Source of the DNA: Alcanivoracaceae bacterium
Lineage (GTDB): Bacteria > Pseudomonadota > Gammaproteobacteria > Pseudomonadales > Alcanivoracaceae
Assembly (NCBI GenBank): GCA_029213045.1
Contig: JARGPN010000001.1
Coordinates: 186,001-250,000 of the forward strand
DNA: 64,000 nucleotides
Direction of reading: 5' to 3'
Shown here: one piece after another, positions 4,928 to 62,910 of the stretch
Position numbering within the stretch: position 1 is the stretch's first letter
Layout of the letters: the number at the start of each line of letters is the position of its first letter
Notes under the pieces: generated by a model
The model's database searches: none
The model's input: only the letters and a program-made list of their open reading frames with translations
Told to the model about the DNA's origin: nothing
Made by a program: the position numbers and the translations under genes

Positions 4928-5971
4928 ATGACGACATCGCACCTCGGGGCGGCTGTCAGGGCTGCCATTGCTGACTGGGAGAAGGAAGGCTCGGCCGCGA
5001 AGAGGCTTGAAGAGCTCGCGGAGCCCGCACAGCTGGCCGAGAAGTTACATAAGCTTGCCATAGAACGCCTGCCAGAGGGGGGCGCCGAGCTGGGCACAAT
5101 CCGGGCGTTGGTATCCAGCGAGCCTTGCCTTCATTTGAAAGGCATCATTTCTCTGGGGCAGATGCAGTCTACGCCCGGGGGTTTTACCCCGGTTCCTGAT
5201 GATGACACTACTATCAGGGCTCGAGCTACGGTGTTGGCAATACATTCCTTATTGGGGATGGAGACCATTTCATACGGGACCGAGAATAATGGTGAGCTCT
5301 TTGTAAATTTGGTGCCGATTGACGGCCAAGGCGCGTACGCAGAGAAGTCTAAGAACGCGATGAGAGGCCATACAGATGCCGCCAGTTTTCCGTTTAGTGG
5401 CGAGCGTGACCACGATCAGCCCCGAATAGCTCCGTCCCCTGATCTGGTTACACTGATCGGGTTGAGAAATCCTAGCAAAGTGCCAACAACAATTATGCCA
5501 CTAAAGAAAGTGGTTAGCGGACTAGATCAGCAAACGATCGAAGTACTGCAGGAGCCTAGGTTCTCCATTCGGCCTCAAAAGACCTTTATAGAAGGCATGC
5601 AGAAAAAGCTCGGCAGGGTTCACGTGCTCCACCGGGTGCCCCTCCTGAGAATACTCCGTACAAGTCTCCTCTCAATCAGGTATAGCCACTCATCAGTGGT
5701 GAGTTATGACAGCGCTGATTCTGTGTCTGAGGAAGCCTGCAATAGGTTGCAGCAAGCATGTGCGCATTCTGTGGAAGAGCTGGTTATTGAGCCCGGTGAT
5801 ATTCTTGTGATAAACAATCGGTCCTGTTTGCATGGCAGGCGAAGTTTGGGAGAAGAGGGGAATAACGGGCGCTGGTTGATTAGAGCCTACGGATTGAATA
5901 CCGAGACATTAAGTGAAGAGCAGCGGTATCACGATGGTGACCCGAAGAAGAAGCATATACTTTATCCATGA
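4928..5971 (+). CDS. Fe(II)/2-oxoglutarate oxygenase, TauD/clavaminate synthase-like
   Basis: A 347-aa protein with the facial-triad layout of clavaminate synthase/TauD-like oxygenases. It has H148-T-D150 (in RGHTDAASFPF), a distal H302 (CLHGRRS) after the strand EPGDILVINN, and R315/R319 (GRWLIRAYG) suited to binding the 2-oxoglutarate carboxylate. This subgroup hydroxylates free or carrier-bound amino acids and small acids. The substrate cannot be read from sequence. The start is fixed by AGGAGG 5 bases upstream of the ATG. It is divergent from the regulator-helicase pair and shares its control region. It is the island's only clearly metabolic enzyme. Function within the island is unknown. 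Confidence 0.75.
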   Translation: MTTSHLGAAVRAAIADWEKEGSAAKRLEELAEPAQLAEKLHKLAIERLPEGGAELGTIRALVSSEPCLHLKGIISLGQMQSTPGGFTPVPDDDTTIRARATVLAIHSLLGMETISYGTENNGELFVNLVPIDGQGAYAEKSKNAMRGHTDAASFPFSGERDHDQPRIAPSPDLVTLIGLRNPSKVPTTIMPLKKVVSGLDQQTIEVLQEPRFSIRPQKTFIEGMQKKLGRVHVLHRVPLLRILRTSLLSIRYSHSSVVSYDSADSVSEEACNRLQQACAHSVEELVIEPGDILVINNRSCLHGRRSLGEEGNNGRWLIRAYGLNTETLSEEQRYHDGDPKKKHILYP

Positions 5972-13463: not shown

Positions 13464-13483
13464 ATTTGGTGGAGCCGGCGGGA
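13464..13483. repeat. Right island attachment site (ssrA 3' end)
   Basis: A 20-bp exact match to 54-73. It overlaps the last 17 bases of ssrA, including the encoded CCA, so integration leaves tmRNA intact. Confidence 0.9.
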
Positions 13484-13822
13484 ATCGAACCCGCGTCCGT
13501 CAGCAATCCGCCAGTAGATCTACATGCTTAGCCGTGTCTATTGATTTAGGTCCCAGAGGCCCGACGGGCAGGGTGCTGGTTCCGATCCCCTAAGGTTTTA
13601 GCAACGCGGTCCGGGGCGAACATTGTTGCGAGCCTGTGTAGCGATGCTCGCCGCTCTTCCCCACAGGCTGGGTCGATTGGCGATAAGCAGGGATTAAGCT
13701 GCTAGTGCGTAAGAATCGTCGTTTGCGATTACTTTAGTGTGTCACAAGGGATTTACGAGCACTGTAACCTACTCGGCATGCACCACAGGTTTCATAACCG
13801 GCGTCGAAGCCAGGTCGGCCCC
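13467..13822 (-). ncRNA. ssrA: tmRNA (SsrA), tag (A)ANDDSYALAA
   Basis: Transfer-messenger RNA of about 356 nt that rescues stalled ribosomes with SmpB. The 5' end reads GGGGCCGACCTGGCTTCGAC on the minus strand. The 3' end is a tRNA-Ala-like half with a TTCGATTC T-loop and CCACCA. The tag frame (13694-13726) begins at resume codon GCA and encodes ANDDSYALAA before TAA, ending in the LAA degron. P. aeruginosa has ANDDNYALAA. The 3' end serves as the attachment site of the neighbouring island. smpB lies 0.7 kb away. Confidence 0.95.
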
Positions 13823-46929: not shown

Positions 46930-47043
46930 CCAAAATCGGTGTATTCTTTGCGCCCCTTCACCTCGGTGTTGGGGCTAACTTGGCGACAGCTATAAATATG
47001 CATGGCTGCTCGTGTCATACATTACGCATATTGGAGAAGTAAC

Positions 47044-47313
47044 ATGGCATTATCCGCAGAGCAAAAAGCTGCAATTGTTAAAGAGTACGCCTTGAAAGAT
47101 GGCGATACCGGTTCTACCGAAGTTCAGGTTGCGTTGTTGTCTCACAACATCAACGAACTGCAAGGTCACTTCAAAGATCACAAGAAAGATCACCACAGCC
47201 GTCGCGGTTTGATCCGCATGGTAAACCAGCGTCGTAAGCTGCTGGACTACCTGGCCAAGAATGATCGTGATCGTTATTTGAAGCTGATTGAGCGTCTGAG
47301 CCTACGTCGTTAA
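47044..47313 (+). CDS. rpsO: 30S ribosomal protein S15
   Basis: An 89-aa primary 16S rRNA binder. The sequence is canonical: [37 protein letters not shown], then [22 protein letters not shown]. The ATG at 47044 follows GGAGAAGTAAC. Confidence 0.98.
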
Positions 47314-56531: not shown

Positions 56532-57884
56532 TTACGTGTTCTGGCGTCGCGGACGCCGACGGCGTCTTTTGCCGCTGCTTGCTCCTTGACCAAGATCGCG
56601 GACCAACTGGTCTCTACCGATGCTATCCGCCTCTTGGTACTGCGTCCACCATTCTCCGAGTCCTGGCTCAATTTCGCCGGATTGTTCGCGTAGTAACAAG
56701 AAATCGTATGCGGCACGGAAGCGAGGGTGCTCCACGAGTGCTTCTGCGCGGCGGCCGTGGCGGCTATCGAGGCGGGCTTGTAAATCCCAAATCTCGCGCA
56801 TTACCGTAGAAAAGCGTTTCGGGATGGTGGTGACTTTGATTTGTTCGTTAAGCACCTGTCCGGACGCTTTGGACATGGCGGGGGCGTACGGCATGCCATT
56901 GTCGAGATGCTTTTGCAGGCGTTTATGTAAGGCGGGCCAAAGCAGTACCGCATACAAAAAAGCGGGTGTGACGGGACGCTCGTTAGCAATGCGAACGTCG
57001 GTGTTGCGTGCCGCCTGCTCAATCAACGCCTGCCAGATTTTTTTCTGCTCCGCATCGTGCAGGCGTTTTCCGGTTTCCGGAAATAGCACTTCAAATAAGC
57101 TATAGCGTTGTAGCGCTGCCACCGAGCTTAGTGCGTGGCCGGTGAGGAATAACTTTAAAACTTCATCGAATAGGCGTGCGGCGGGTACTTGATATAACAA
57201 CGTCGCAAGCGGGCGAATGGGCTTTTCCGTTGACGCCTCAAGTTCGAAATTTAATTTTGCGGCGAAGCGTGCCGCGCGCAACATGCGCACAGGATCTTCG
57301 CGGTAGCGTTGTTCTGGGTCACCGATTAAACGAATTAATTTGCGCTCTATATCTTTGAGGCTGCCAACAAAGTCATACAATGCGAAATCAGCAATATTGT
57401 AGTAGAGCGCATTGATGGTGAAGTCACGACGCAGTGCATCTTCTTCAATGCTGCCGTAAACGTTGTCGCGAAGAATTAATCCACCGTCACTTTGCGAATG
57501 ATCGTCATCGGCATGATCACTGGTGAGCGCGCGGAAGGTGGATACTTCGATGGTCTCGCGACCGAACATTACATGCACTAAGCGAAAGCGACGGCCGATA
57601 ATGCGACTGCGGCGAAAGAGCGGTTTAGCTTCTTCGGGCGTAGCATTGGTGACAACGTCAAAATCTTTCGGCGTGTAGCCGGTGAGGATATCGCGCAAAC
57701 AGCCGCCAACCAGATAGGCGTCGAAGCCGCCTTTGTGCAGACCGTAGAGCACATCGAGCGCCGCACGGCTAAGTTGCTTGCGAGAAATTTCGTGGTGTTC
57801 GCGGGTATGGATATCCGGCACCGGTAAACTGGTGGAACTCTTCCCGAAGATTCGAGTCACAAATGCGGACAACTTGCCAGACAT
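56532..57884 (-). CDS. pcnB: Poly(A) polymerase I PcnB
   Basis: A 450-aa nucleotidyltransferase that adds 3' A tails and promotes RNA decay. AYLVGGCLRDILTGYTPKDFDVVTNATPEEAKPLF contains the nucleotidyl-transfer Asp pair (DFD); RRDFTINALYYN and RRAADALR-like LRAARFAAKL are conserved. The C-terminal tail is basic (GKRRRRRPRRQ). Gene order cbrB-(sRNA)-pcnB-folK is as in Pseudomonas. Confidence 0.95.
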   Translation of the reverse strand: MSGKLSAFVTRIFGKSSTSLPVPDIHTREHHEISRKQLSRAALDVLYGLHKGGFDAYLVGGCLRDILTGYTPKDFDVVTNATPEEAKPLFRRSRIIGRRFRLVHVMFGRETIEVSTFRALTSDHADDDHSQSDGGLILRDNVYGSIEEDALRRDFTINALYYNIADFALYDFVGSLKDIERKLIRLIGDPEQRYREDPVRMLRAARFAAKLNFELEASTEKPIRPLATLLYQVPAARLFDEVLKLFLTGHALSSVAALQRYSLFEVLFPETGKRLHDAEQKKIWQALIEQAARNTDVRIANERPVTPAFLYAVLLWPALHKRLQKHLDNGMPYAPAMSKASGQVLNEQIKVTTIPKRFSTVMREIWDLQARLDSRHGRRAEALVEHPRFRAAYDFLLLREQSGEIEPGLGEWWTQYQEADSIGRDQLVRDLGQGASSGKRRRRRPRRQNT

Positions 57885-58065
57885 GCGTTTTCACTATTCC
57901 AGTTTTTCAAAGTCGGGCATGTTAGCACGGCCAGTGCGCTGAATGTGTAGCATGCAGTAGAGAGTTTTGCGGTATTCGCCTGTTGAGAGGTTATCGGTTT
58001 GCTGATTCGGCTGGAGGAAAATTTGTTGGGATGCTGGTTTAGATGCCACGAATTCCAAAGGCCCA

Positions 58066-58316
58066 GAAATGAAAATGGGACCACAGCTCCGCTGTGGTCC
58101 CCATTGCGCTGATTCTATTGTTATTATTGTTTGTCTGTTCTTATTTGCCTGTTATGAAATCCCGGTAAGGGGAAAGCATAACGTTGCACTGCATTGGCTC
58201 GTAAAATTGTTATTATTATTTCAACAGCCTATTTTTATTTTTTGTGGCCGTGAGCCTAATCATCACCGCGTTTTTGTTATTAGTTATCCGGTGTGGTGAT
58301 CATATTGATGATTTGA
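58066..58316 (-). ncRNA. crcZ: CrcZ-like Hfq/Crc-sequestering small RNA (predicted)
   Basis: In the 571-bp cbrB-pcnB gap, on the minus strand, three clusters match the Hfq/Crc CA motif AAYAAYAA: 58274-58281, 58207-58220 (two overlapping) and 58118-58131 (three overlapping). Downstream is a perfect 11-bp hairpin (58077-58087 with 58091-58101, 3-base loop) ending in a T-rich tail, a plausible terminator. In Pseudomonas the same gap holds crcZ, an RNA that titrates Hfq/Crc to relieve catabolite repression and is activated by CbrB. Position, motifs and regulatory sites agree. Ends are approximate. Confidence 0.75.
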
Positions 58317-58324
58317 CGGGTGCT

Positions 58325-58341
58325 TTGCAAGATTACGTGAA
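58325..58341 (-). promoter_or_regulatory. Possible sigma-54 promoter of the crcZ-like RNA
   Basis: On the minus strand, TTTCACGTAATCTTGCA has a good -12 (TTGCA) but its -24 side reads TTTCAC where TGGCAC is expected, and the spacing is 1 base too long. It lies about 80 bases downstream of the CbrB-like sites, which suits an enhancer-dependent promoter. Confidence 0.35.
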
Positions 58342-58405
58342 AGTCTTTTGAATCAACGGGTTATGAATATTGTTGATTTTCCGGACATGTGTTTATTGCA
58401 GTAAT

Positions 58406-58440
58406 GTAACAAACCTGTGTAGGACGGTAACACTTGTTAC
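58406..58440. promoter_or_regulatory. CbrB-type activator sites (GTAACA/TGTTAC)
   Basis: Three half-sites occur: GTAACA (58406-58411), GTAACA (58427-58432) and TGTTAC (58435-58440). The last two form the palindrome GGTAACACTTGTTACC. These match the TGTTAC/GTAACA half-sites I recall for Pseudomonas CbrB upstream of crcZ. They lie directly after the cbrB stop. Confidence 0.7.
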
Positions 58441-58455
58441 CCCTTGCCTATGTTG

Positions 58456-59799
58456 TTAGCCGACAGCACTTCCTTTCTTGCGCGGTATGCTCAATCTCTG
58501 ACGACGCTCCCACAGACACTTTCGGCTGATGCCTAGTTTGCGCGCCAATTCGGTTTCGGTCATGTGGTCTTGGTTTTCCAAAACAAAGCGTGCGAAATAA
58601 TCCTCTAGCGAAAGCTCTTCTGAAGGGTCCTGAAAACCGCGGTTTTCACCGGGATCAATGTCGAGCTCTTCGGCGGTGATTTCTTCTTTTTCGCTCATGA
58701 TCACGGCGCGTTCAATCACATTGCTGAGTTCGCGGACGTTGCCCGGCCAATAATAGTGGGTCATGGCAAACACGGCGTCTTCGCTGAAATGCAGTTCGCC
58801 AAAGCCTAAGCGTGCACAGGTGTTCTCAAGAAAATGGCTGGCGAGCGCTTCAATGTCTTGCTGGCGGTCGCGTAATGGCGGCACTTTTAGCTCAAGGACG
58901 TTGAGGCGGTAATAGAGGTCTTCGCGGAAGCGGCCGTCGCGCACCTGCTTGGCTAAATCTCGGTGGCTGGTGGCCACCAAACGCACGTCCACTTTTCGCG
59001 GCTCGACGCTGCCAATGCGTCGGACTTCCTGATCCTGCAGCAGGCGTAACAGCCGGCCCTGTGCTTCCATTGGCATTTCATCAATATCTTCTAAGAACAG
59101 ACAGCCGCCGTGTGCCGATTCGGCGAGTCCACGGTGGGTTGCCTGTGCAGCGGCAAAGGCGCCTTTTTCGTGGCCAAAAATTTCAGACTCTATTTGGTCT
59201 GCAGGCAAGGCTGCACAATTTACAGAGATAAAGGGGCCGCGGTGGCGTGAGCCTTGGGTGTGTAGCATTTGCGCAATCAACTCTTTGCCAGTGCCTGATT
59301 CACCGGTAATTAATACGGTGCTGTCGCTCACCGCAACGCGCTCCATGCGGCGCTGTAACGCTTGCATAGGCTCGCTTTCGCCGATGATGGCTTGGGCTTT
59401 TTGTTCAGCGCTGGCAGTGCGCTTGCCTGAATGGGCGGCGGCGCGAGGTGCCAGTTTTTGCGTAAGGATACGGTCTACTGCGGCAACCATTTCATCGTGG
59501 TCAAATGGCTTGGCGATATAGTCCACCGCGCCAAGTTTCATGGCGTCCACGGCGGAGCGCAGGCTGGCGTAACTGGTCATGATTAAAACAGGAGTGGGGC
59601 TCGCCGAGGTGATGAGGTCGGTGCCATGGGCGCCTGGCAGGCGCAAATCGCTGATCACTAAATCGAAATCAGGAAGAGATTGTTCGCAGGCCTGCTCGAC
59701 AGATTCAGCTTCTACAACATTATGGTCGTGACGTTCCAGCAGCTTGCGTAACGCGCCGCGAATAACGGGTTCATCTTCGACTATCAGGATGTGGCTCAT
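58456..59799 (-). CDS. cbrB: Response regulator CbrB (sigma-54 activator)
   Basis: A 447-aa NtrC-type regulator for carbon/nitrogen hierarchy. The receiver has D51 (VISDLRLPG) and K97 (IAKPFD). The AAA+ domain has Walker A GESGTGKE (166-173), Walker B GGCLFLEDIDEMP, and R fingers in REDLYYRLNVLELKVPPLR. A Fis-type helix-turn-helix ends the protein (TELARKLGISRKCLWERRQ). The sigma-54-contact loop reads GAFAAA (213-218) instead of GAFTGA. ATGA overlap with cbrA. Identified as CbrB by gene order and the partner's unusual architecture. Confidence 0.9.
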   Translation of the reverse strand: MSHILIVEDEPVIRGALRKLLERHDHNVVEAESVEQACEQSLPDFDLVISDLRLPGAHGTDLITSASPTPVLIMTSYASLRSAVDAMKLGAVDYIAKPFDHDEMVAAVDRILTQKLAPRAAAHSGKRTASAEQKAQAIIGESEPMQALQRRMERVAVSDSTVLITGESGTGKELIAQMLHTQGSRHRGPFISVNCAALPADQIESEIFGHEKGAFAAAQATHRGLAESAHGGCLFLEDIDEMPMEAQGRLLRLLQDQEVRRIGSVEPRKVDVRLVATSHRDLAKQVRDGRFREDLYYRLNVLELKVPPLRDRQQDIEALASHFLENTCARLGFGELHFSEDAVFAMTHYYWPGNVRELSNVIERAVIMSEKEEITAEELDIDPGENRGFQDPSEELSLEDYFARFVLENQDHMTETELARKLGISRKCLWERRQRLSIPRKKGSAVG

Positions 59800-62744
59800 G
59801 ACTGCTCCGCAACTGCCTCCACATAAGCAGGTAATGTAATCGTGAAACGGGTGCCTTGGCCATCGGCAACAGGGCTTTCCACACGAATACTCCCACCGTG
59901 ATCTTCAATAATACTGTACACCAGCGCTAAGCCAAGGCCTGTGCCTCTGCCCGGTGCCTTGCTGGTTACAAACGGTTCAAACAGGGTTTCGCGTAATTCA
60001 ACGGGTATACCTTGACCGTGATCTTCGACTTCGAGTGTCACCTCTTGTTCCTGCAGGCTGCCGCGTATCGTGACCGGCTGTCGGTCTGGATTGGCGTCAG
60101 CAGCGTTGGAGAGCAGGTTAACAAATACCTGAAGTAGCCGCTGTGGGTCACCGTTGGCGGTCAGGGTGTCTGGACATTCATTGACGATCGGCAGATGCCT
60201 ACGATCTGGGTCAAGACGGATCAGCGCCTTGGCTTCCTCAATGACGTCGTGCATGCGTACCGGTAAATGGCTTTGCGCGGGTAAACCGCCGGAGTGGCTG
60301 AAGGTGACCAACGATTCAACAATGCGCGAGATGCGGCGCGTTTGTTCCAAAATTTGCTGGCTCGATTCGCGCACGTCATCGTCGTGATCGCTGAGGTCTA
60401 AGTTTTGCGTTAGGCAGGCGATAGCAGTAACCGGGTTGCCGATCTCGTGGGCAACACCGGCGGCGAGTCGGCCAATTGAAGCGAGGCGTTCATTGTGTGC
60501 CAGGCGCGACTCAAGTGAGCGGACGTCGGTGACGTCTTCGACAACGATGACCTGACCGCCATCCCGTTCGCCCGGTGTGGGGCCGTGGACGCGTGATTTA
60601 TGCAGACTTAACCATTGGGTTTGATGATTAATTTCTAATGTTTGCTGCGGCATTCTCACCACATCGCCGAGCGCAAACTCCATTAAGAGTTGTCGCCATG
60701 GTTGAGGCAAATTGGATAACCGTGAGCCAATCATGCGGCGGCCACTGATATGGGTCAGTTGCTCCATGGCCAGATTCCAACCAATGATTTCGCCGTCGGA
60801 GCCGAGTGAAATAACGCCCATGGGCAACTCAAGCAGAGTTTGCCTATGGAACCGGCGTAAGCTATCAAGTTCTGCCGCCAAGCCGGAAAGTCTATTGCGA
60901 TACAGCTCTAAACGGGATTCGATAAATTGAATATCTTCGCTGGTTTCTGATTCGTCGTGCGGCTTATAGGGTAAGTAATCATCAACCAGCTGGTGCGAGA
61001 CCGAAGGGCCCAGTAAGCCGGATAAGTTTGTTTCGAGTTGATCGCGTAAACGCCGCAGCGCATAGGGCCGCGTTTCATTGCGCGAGACATTTAAATCACG
61101 CAGCGCCAGTTCTACTTCGCGTTCCGCGGTCGATGCGCCAAGCGGATTAGCGAGGGACCCAATAAAATCTTCAACGCTATTCGCCTCAAGCTCCCAGCGA
61201 TATGGACGGCGCAAGCTGTCCACCGCGCAGGCTTCTGCTGCGTTCCGTTCGGCGGGGGTGGTACTGGTTATCATGGACACAATGGCGAACAAAAATCCGT
61301 TGGCGGCGACAGAAAACATGGCGATGGTTTGCCATTGTTCGGCGGGTTCAATAAAACGAACGCCAAGAAGTTCTTGCGCCAATGGAATCTGCCAGCTCGG
61401 CATCAGCATTGGCAAAACGAGGACAAAGAGCCACACGATAAAGCCGGTCATTAAACCGGTGAACAACCCTTTGCGATTGGCGCCCGGCCAAAACAGGGTG
61501 CCGATTAATCCAGGCACAAATTGCAGGGTGGCAACAAAAGACAGCACGCCTAGTTCGGTGAGGCTATGGCGGTGCCCGCTCCACACGTAAAACAAGTATG
61601 CCAGCAGTAGCATGGATGCGATTAGGATGCGGCGAGCCCAAAGCAACCAGCGATATAAGTCTTCTGTGTGCTGCACTGGGCGTAATGGCAGCACGAGGTG
61701 ATTAAGTGCCATGCTCGACAGTGCCAAGGTCGCCACAATGAGCATGCCGCTAGCGCCAGCGAGGCCTGCAATATAGGCGAGCAGGGAGGCGTGACCGCCA
61801 ATATGCTGAGTAAGGCCAAGTGAGAAATAATCTGCAGGTGTGGTGACTTGTACTTTTAGCGACGCCCACAACACCAACGGCACGCTGATCGCCATCACCA
61901 AGAATAATAGCGGCACGCCCCAGCTCGCGGTAATTAGTGCGCGGGGGTTTAGGTTCTCAGTGAAGGCCATATGAAACATGTGCGGCATTACCACGGCGGA
62001 CACGAAAAACGCCATAACCAGTGAATGCCAAGAGCCATCTTGTAATGGGAAGTACAGGCGCGCGAGCATTTCGGGGTGGTCGTTCAGCCACGTGTTGAGG
62101 CCGTCAGGTCCGTCGAACACACCAAATAATCCAATCAGTGCAACGGCGGCAAAGGCGACAACTTTAATTAACGATTCCACCGCAATGGCGACCACTAACC
62201 CTTCATGTTTTTCTCGGGCGGTGGCGTGGCGGGCACCAAATAAAATGGCAAACAGTGTGATCAGCATGCAAAACCAACCGGCCACATTAATTGGTTCGTT
62301 GCCGCCGCTCAAAATTTCAATGGATTCGGCGACCGCTTTAATTTGCAGTGACAGCAATGGCAGCATGCAGGCAATCATGATGATGGTGGTTAACGCACCG
62401 GCGGAGCGGCTGCGAAAACGAAAGGCAAATAAATCAGCGAGAGAGCTTAATTGATAGGTCGTCGTTAGCCGCAAAATAGGCGCAAGCAAGATCGGCGCCA
62501 GCAAAAACGCGCCGGAAATTCCGAGGAAGTAGGCCATGTAGTTGTAGCCATACAGGTGCGCATAACCCACCGCACCGTAAATGGCCCAAGCGCTACAATA
62601 AACCCCGAGCGACAACACATAAATGGCGGGATGGCGCACGAGGCGCGCAGGAAGCAAGCCTCGATCGGTAATCCACGCAACGAAGAAAAGAAGAAGTAAG
62701 TAGCCCAGCGCGACGGCGAAAAGCTGATAAAAACTAAAGCCCAT
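59796..62744 (-). CDS. cbrA: Transporter-fused sensor kinase CbrA
   Basis: A 982-aa membrane sensor. The N-terminal half (about 1-490) is a sodium:solute symporter-like module of about 13 helices ([22 protein letters not shown]). A STAC-like/connector region (about 520-600), a PAS domain (about 640-740, [22 protein letters not shown]), HisKA with H766 ([12 protein letters not shown]), and HATPase ([40 protein letters not shown]) follow. This is the CbrA architecture. The ATG at 62744 is chosen; a TTG 7 codons upstream exists. The start lies inside the 3' end of the small upstream gene, suggesting coupled translation. Confidence 0.93.
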
Positions 62745-62910
62745 CGAAATCCCTGCTTCGCGCAATCCAGTAGCTCAGGCCGATCAGTGCCAGCCAAACC
62801 ATAAAGGGTCGGAACCACGACTGGCCGCCGTCGCTCCACCATTGAATAATCGCCGGTGACAGCAGGTAGGTGCCAAGAATAAAAATGATTAAAAGCCGGT
62901 CTGTATACAT
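62734..62910 (-). CDS. cbrX: Small membrane protein upstream of cbrA (CbrX-like)
   Basis: A 58-aa gene, too short for common gene-length cut-offs. MYTDRLLIIFILGTYLLSPA gives one hydrophobic helix (about 5-22); a second is PFMVWLALIGLSYWIA (36-51). It ends RSRDFDGL. It overlaps the cbrA start by 11 bases. A small gene in this place, translationally coupled to cbrA, is known in pseudomonads as cbrX. GGAGT lies 13 bases upstream of the ATG. Confidence 0.8.
   Translation of the reverse strand: MYTDRLLIIFILGTYLLSPAIIQWWSDGGQSWFRPFMVWLALIGLSYWIARSRDFDGL

Follow-up and report, generated by a model that had tools for sequence, protein, structure and literature searches.

A probable CrcZ-type small RNA gene in the cbrB–pcnB gap of an Alcanivorax-containing family that lacks crc

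The cbrA–cbrB–pcnB locus

The 64-kb stretch of DNA analyzed here (the window) belongs to a genome of 3.17 Mb (G000) that is 99.9% complete, and the GTDB family in which this genome is placed, hereafter the family, includes Alcanivorax. On the minus strand of the window cbrA, cbrB and pcnB follow one another, and the gap between the last two contains a putative operator, a candidate promoter region and a predicted RNA. The genes and features are as follows.

59796–62765, minus strand: cbrA, transceptor kinase with an SLC5-type domain, PAS and HisKA/HATPase (PDB 10ed match; Pfam HisKA/HATPase_c)
58456–59799, minus strand: cbrB, NtrC-type response regulator of 447 aa (ORF; Pfam Response_reg, Sigma54_activat and AAA_lid; L1 loop alignment; tree)
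58455–57885, minus strand: cbrB–pcnB gap, between the cbrB stop (58456–58458) and the pcnB ATG (at 57884), both on the minus strand
58405–58441, minus strand: putative CbrB-type operator, with GGTAAC (58441–58436), F1 TGTTAC (58432–58427) followed by CGTCCTACACA, and a degenerate R1 GTTACA (58410–58405)
58351–58363, plus strand: predicted IHF-type site AATCAACGGGTTA, which matches WATCAANNNNTTR, between operator and promoter
58326–58330, minus strand: TTGCA, what is left of a sigma-54 −24 element, in register with the TGGCACG of Pseudomonas
58299–58304, minus strand: TATGAT, candidate −10-type element (invariant columns of alignment A2, see below; conserved family CAnnATnA block)
58067–58292, minus strand: predicted CrcZ-type RNA, ~225 nt (conserved alignment block through the terminator; covariance model; fold z-score)
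58274–58281, minus strand: A-rich cluster 1 (AATAACAA), in the loop of the consensus 5′ stem (motif scan, family alignment)
58207–58220, minus strand: A-rich cluster 2, three overlapping AAYAAYAA, within the stem GGCTC (58256–58252)/GAGCC (58200–58196)
58118–58131, minus strand: A-rich cluster 3, three overlapping AAYAAYAA, with the near-invariant AGAATCAGCGCA coming next
58067–58101, minus strand: intrinsic terminator of the RNA, GGGACCACAGC-GGA-GCTGTGGTCCC and then ATTTTCATTT (covariation)
56532–57884, minus strand: pcnB, poly(A) polymerase, the downstream gene (TIGR01942, 510 bits)

Residues 7–603 of CbrA match a histidine kinase (PDB 10ed, E 3e-206) with the transceptor domain kept, and a protein with both SLC5-type transceptor and kinase domains thus adjoins cbrB, as is characteristic of CbrAB systems; the closest named CbrB is 60% identical to that of the window. 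The predicted RNA shares its strand with cbrB and pcnB and sits between them, which is the position of CrcZ. This cbrB–RNA–pcnB arrangement, with A-rich clusters on the sense strand, is present at all 35 family loci that have cbrB, and its sigma-54 form occurs in Pseudomonas and, among the remaining Pseudomonadales families that were sampled, in most; it therefore extends beyond the Pseudomonadaceae. A 2022 review describes CbrAB and the cbrA–cbrB–crcZ order as unique to the Pseudomonadaceae (PMC8871633); unlike that statement, we find the order and the motifs in many other Pseudomonadales families.

Two genomes of the family have gaps (L090 and L091) that match those of the named Alcanivorax loci L004 and L007 in how long they are, in identity and in where the motifs stand. 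Another, G014, probably corresponds to Alcanivorax dieselolei B-5, as the position of its tmRNA (4,307,334–4,307,691) agrees with that of the antisense RNA sRNA4307718 of PMC9788540. A catalogue of 549 small RNAs from Alcanivorax dieselolei B-5 notes that Crc is missing, and CrcZ neither figures in its Rfam annotations nor is mentioned in the accessible text (PMC9788540). Elsewhere in the window, Rfam models mark a ribosomal S15 leader (46982–47100) and a tmRNA (13467–13822).

The predicted RNA and its kinship to CrcZ

The motif AAYAAYAA, a ligand of the Hfq distal face, has seven overlapping matches on the minus strand of the gap, in three clusters (starts at 58281; at 58220, 58217 and 58214; and at 58131, 58128 and 58125), and none on the plus strand; for AANAANAA the sense strand has 11 matches. 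Dinucleotide shuffles of the gap give a mean of 0.39 AAYAAYAA matches, with seven reached in 0 of 2000, and of just 17 matches on the two strands of the whole window the gap accounts for seven. The several sense-strand Hfq motifs of the AAnAAnAA type that are expected of an RNA of CrcZ's functional kind are thus present.

We aligned 33 family sequences from TTGCA through the terminator (alignment A2). Their common architecture is a 5′ stem around cluster 1, the GGCTC/GAGCC stem around cluster 2, cluster 3 with the sequence that follows it, and the terminator; the clusters are the conserved part of the RNA and stand at the same positions across all 33. Compensatory changes are found in 7 of the 11 terminator pairs. 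Stems 1 and 2 have none in this alignment, where their pairing is kept and their bases are nearly invariant, and covariation is therefore uninformative for or against them. The fold z-score of the window RNA is −4.5, and in the MFE fold of its own sequence the first consensus stem is not formed. A covariance model built on A2 finds a single copy in the genome, at 180 bits, and no extra copies of the crcX/crcY kind.

Most of what the initial annotation had described at this locus is borne out. Its three AAYAAYAA clusters on one strand are there, with seven overlapping matches and not the six it counted; its terminal hairpin is the intrinsic terminator at 58101–58067; and the GTAACA/TGTTAC half-sites that it placed between the cbrB stop and the RNA are present near that stop (GTAACA at 58440–58435, TGTTAC at 58432–58427 and 58411–58406). 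It gave the RNA about 250 nt and called it shorter than Pseudomonas CrcZ, which agrees with a predicted ~225 nt against 407 for CrcZ (RF01675), and conservation of the A-rich clusters in relatives, which it proposed as a check, is seen in the 33 family sequences. The covariance search against crcZ that it also proposed gave a score below the threshold: the Rfam CrcZ model (RF01675) scores 15.0 bits on the window with a cut-off of 95, 20–24 bits on two relatives and 276 bits on a Pseudomonas control locus (L008), and the family covariance model scores <20 bits on Pseudomonas loci. A CRISPR repeat, also returned by Rfam in the window, was rejected as a chance match on the terminator stem.

Because sequence identity is far below the Rfam threshold, kinship to CrcZ rests on synteny, the operator, the IHF-type block, and the type and architecture of the motifs. 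With the Pseudomonas/Azotobacter CrcZ (RF01675) the family RNA shares the site between cbrB and pcnB, several sense-strand A-rich Hfq motifs, an intrinsic terminator, and an upstream CbrB-type box and IHF-type block; it differs in having no sigma-54 promoter, in belonging to an organism without Crc, and in the conserved GGCTC/GAGCC stem around cluster 2. From the sequence, the gap very probably holds a real, conserved small RNA gene of the CrcZ type, an Hfq sponge downstream of CbrAB, and the initial annotation's view of a CrcZ-type RNA at the CrcZ position in a non-Pseudomonas genome, with Hfq-type A-rich motifs, terminator and CbrB-type box, is retained. CsrB/RsmZ-type RNAs likewise titrate a translational repressor through repeats of a motif to which it binds, but they bind CsrA/RsmA through GGA, whereas the motif of the window RNA is AAYAAYAA, for Hfq.

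Operator, promoter and CbrB

The CbrB of Pseudomonas is a sigma-54 activator with the site consensus TGTTAC-N12-14-GTAACA-N15-19-GTAACA (PMC8871633, PMC6296734). In the window F1 is perfect, R1 is degenerate (GTTACA) and R2 is absent; across the family a perfect TGTTAC-N12-18-GTAACA is present at 30 of 35 loci, compared with 0 in shuffled gaps. An exact match to the extended operator occurs only once in the whole genome; another CbrB-type site (G000:C15:6709), which has a single mismatch, falls within a coding frame and was judged to be due to chance. Family and Pseudomonas loci have the IHF-type block in a common register. The family shares with Pseudomonas CbrAB the CbrA transceptor and CbrB, the operon order and a TGTTAC-type operator, and is unlike it in a CbrB L1 loop without GAFTGA (below) and in a CTACnCA extension of the operator. 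This extension follows the operator TGTTACC (58432–58416 in the window) at 32 of 35 family loci and at 0 of 74 Pseudomonas loci, as if the operator had gained a second recognition element. Part of genus g3 (L004, L007, L092 and L093) has a conserved inverted repeat between the CbrB box and the promoter (AGTGAACA nnn TGTTCACT in L004), and in L008, a Pseudomonas locus, the Rfam small RNA P36 (RF01679) is placed in the cbrB–crcZ gap (4943–5003), over the region of the cbrB terminator that includes the R2 half-site.

Sigma-54 promoters with a score of at least 10 occur in the gap at 74 of 74 Pseudomonas loci, at 18 of 27 loci of other families and at 0 of 35 family loci; the −24/−12 promoter expected of CrcZ is missing from the family. 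In an anchored display, TTGCA[AT] stands exactly where Pseudomonas has TGGCACG, every displayed family sequence having T in place of the leading G of the GG; nothing is left of the −12 TGC, and the block TAAnnnnTTGA...AAG keeps its register. Loss of rpoN was rejected as the cause of this decay, since the gene is present in G000 and in all well-assembled family genomes. About 20 nt past TTGCA and ahead of the first conserved stem lies the CAnnATnA block, which reads TATGAT in the window and, for two large genera, CACTATGAATCCC, and which may be a −10 element; in G014 it stands at about 4,261,049–4,261,055. The candidate −35/−10 pair has a 20-bp spacer. A scan upstream of the RNA recognized no consensus sigma-70 promoter, and it missed TATGAT as well.

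The GAFTGA motif is standard in NtrC-type activators, and its loss within the family is for that reason the simpler direction of change. Our L1-loop alignment of about 140 CbrB sequences includes 74 of the Pseudomonas block, all with GAFTGA, and 35 of the family, all of which have lost it; other families have GAFTGA too, with GSFTGA or GAFSGA in three. The window CbrB reads GAFAAA and so does not have the GAFTGA of a sigma-54-dependent enhancer-binding protein, and the loops of other family members are GAFAGA, GAFEGA, DALPGA, DAVPGA, GAVAGR, otherwise altered, or, in two genera, deleted. In the CbrB tree a branch supported at 100/99 sets the family apart from the rest.

Changes in the GAFTGA loop mostly abolish sigma-54 activity, and proline at position 4 is a common defect (PMC3162934), which the DALPGA of the family matches. 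NtrC proteins without GAFTGA act at sigma-70 promoters in Rhodobacter and Caulobacter (PMC10274813; GAFTGA-less NtrC at sigma-70 also in PMC3162934). Those of Rhodobacter capsulatus and Caulobacter have in common with family CbrB the REC, AAA+ and HTH domains and the lost sigma-54 contact loop, but their regulon is nitrogen, whereas family CbrB adjoins the putative small RNA gene with its parallel decay of a sigma-54 promoter. The activator's contact loop and its presumed target promoter were lost together while the operator stayed.

Some CbrB proteins of the family are altered elsewhere. The Walker B of the window CbrB is LFLEDIDEMP, not LFLDEIGELP (LFLDDVDELP in the sister genome), and ATP hydrolysis by CbrB may be impaired in the window's genus. 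L166, from a 2.1-Mb genome (G007), has a very divergent CbrB in which both Walker A (GEASTGKQ) and Walker B (LVLAEI) are damaged, yet box and terminator are retained, as is the RNA (140 bits). L096 (G012) has an in-frame TGA near the CbrB C-terminus and a repeated stretch, GAATCGGCTCCCATCCACATTCGTTGGGCTC, in the gap.

Crc, Hfq and the proposed switch

A P. aeruginosa Crc query, validated by its full-length match to PDB 4jg3, found no crc in G000 but one protein only, 29% identical, which is XthA (PDB 1ako, E 5e-114). Among 57 relatives no family genome has a match better than about E 5e-10, compared with E < 1e-57 in most other families, and in a profile search Crc is absent from 46 of 46 family genomes (41 of them at least 90% complete), with at most one match per genome, of about 88–113 bits and mostly of XthA length. 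The genes rph and pyrE, the latter of which adjoins crc in P. aeruginosa, are 10 nt apart with no gene between them. Independently, one report states that Alcanivorax has no Crc homologue (PMC9788540). The gene on which Hfq/Crc catabolite repression depends is thus missing from G000 and from the 46 family genomes. In G000 hfq is present, and of the family genomes read nearly all share an identical Hfq core. Hfq residue 25, a distal-face contact, is Tyr in Pseudomonas and Phe throughout the family; Y25F was rejected as a family-specific adaptation to Crc loss, since F25 also occurs in several Crc-bearing families.

The initial annotation had the RNA sequester Hfq/Crc in the same switch as in Pseudomonas, and named the lack of a crc-like gene as grounds for refutation. 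The Crc half of the claim falls, as this 99.9% complete genome has only XthA, and the hfq gene is in place. "The same switch" is also too strong for a CbrB without the sigma-54 contact motif and a crcZ whose sigma-54 promoter is gone.

We consider it likely that the locus encodes a rewired CbrB–CrcZ–Hfq switch, in which a CrcZ-type RNA of ~225 nt would have Hfq as its sole target and would probably be made by the housekeeping polymerase. Poor carbon sources would activate CbrA and lead to phosphorylation of CbrB, which would bind the TGTTAC-type operator ~140 nt upstream and switch the RNA on with the help of IHF bending. Since its contact loop is lost and the promoter is without −24/−12 elements, CbrB probably works on the housekeeping (sigma-70) polymerase, like the GAFTGA-less NtrC proteins. 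The RNA would show its three AAYAAYAA clusters to the Hfq distal face and titrate Hfq off A-rich ribosome-binding sites, by which blocked carbon-use genes would be released. Crc has no role in this scheme, and the RNA cannot titrate an Hfq/Crc complex, because crc is absent from the family. Work on P. aeruginosa assigns repression chiefly to Hfq, which CrcZ titrates, and gives Crc an auxiliary part; esterase goes up on overexpression of crcZ even when crc is mutated, and in E. coli Hfq suffices by itself to repress a target (PMC4063720). These findings, together with GAFTGA-less NtrC at sigma-70 promoters (PMC10274813), make a switch free of Crc and sigma-54 the best reading. As to its origin, we lean slightly toward an ancestor of the family that rewired the carbon switch as a unit, with CbrB turned into an activator of the housekeeping polymerase, the crcZ promoter converted in place and Crc discarded, leaving a Crc-free circuit in hydrocarbon degraders. 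The family would then offer the best-studied Hfq-sponge circuit in a form that is Crc-free by nature, in which the roles of CrcZ and Hfq without Crc can be asked.

The main alternative, which seems to us unlikely, is that the RNA lacks a dedicated promoter and is the processed 3′ end of the cbrB transcript, so that CrcZ follows cbrB expression. Unlike Pseudomonas crcZ loci, most family loci have no terminator after cbrB (by hairpin search it is present at 57 of 72 Pseudomonas loci and missing at 30 of 33 family loci), and this read-through would also fit the lack of a consensus promoter upstream of the RNA and the high basal CrcZ that Pseudomonas keeps up under repressing conditions (PMC8871633). 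However, the operator, the IHF-type block, TTGCA and CAnnATnA are conserved before the RNA start and the bases between the latter two are not, and the region therefore resembles a promoter and not a transcribed leader. Less probable still is a relic of CrcZ, whose A-rich motifs would work through base pairing or a different protein and not by Hfq titration: stable Hfq repression may be weaker without Crc, given its description as an auxiliary (PMC4063720), but the Hfq ligand AAYAAYAA is the very part of the RNA that is conserved, and the near-uniform Hfq core likewise argues against a relic. A full Pseudomonas-type CrcZ titrating Hfq/Crc under sigma-54 control, though alike in gene order, box and motifs and in having rpoN, can hardly be entertained, as it is contradicted by the lack of crc in genome and family (only XthA; nothing between rph and pyrE) and of both the sigma-54 promoter and GAFTGA.

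For the rewired CbrB–CrcZ–Hfq switch, the genome has AAYAAYAA 3–16 nt ahead of ATG at 166 places, versus 95 for the reversed pattern, and among the ~100 such places listed few precede convincing gene starts. Candidate targets, as a lead only, are a lipase-like alpha/beta hydrolase (L267) and an aldehyde dehydrogenase (L314). At L221 (G000:C3:4960–4981), AATAACAAGGAGATG lies over the start of what by eye is a Csy2-like CRISPR protein and may be an Hfq-type site in a system of type I-F.
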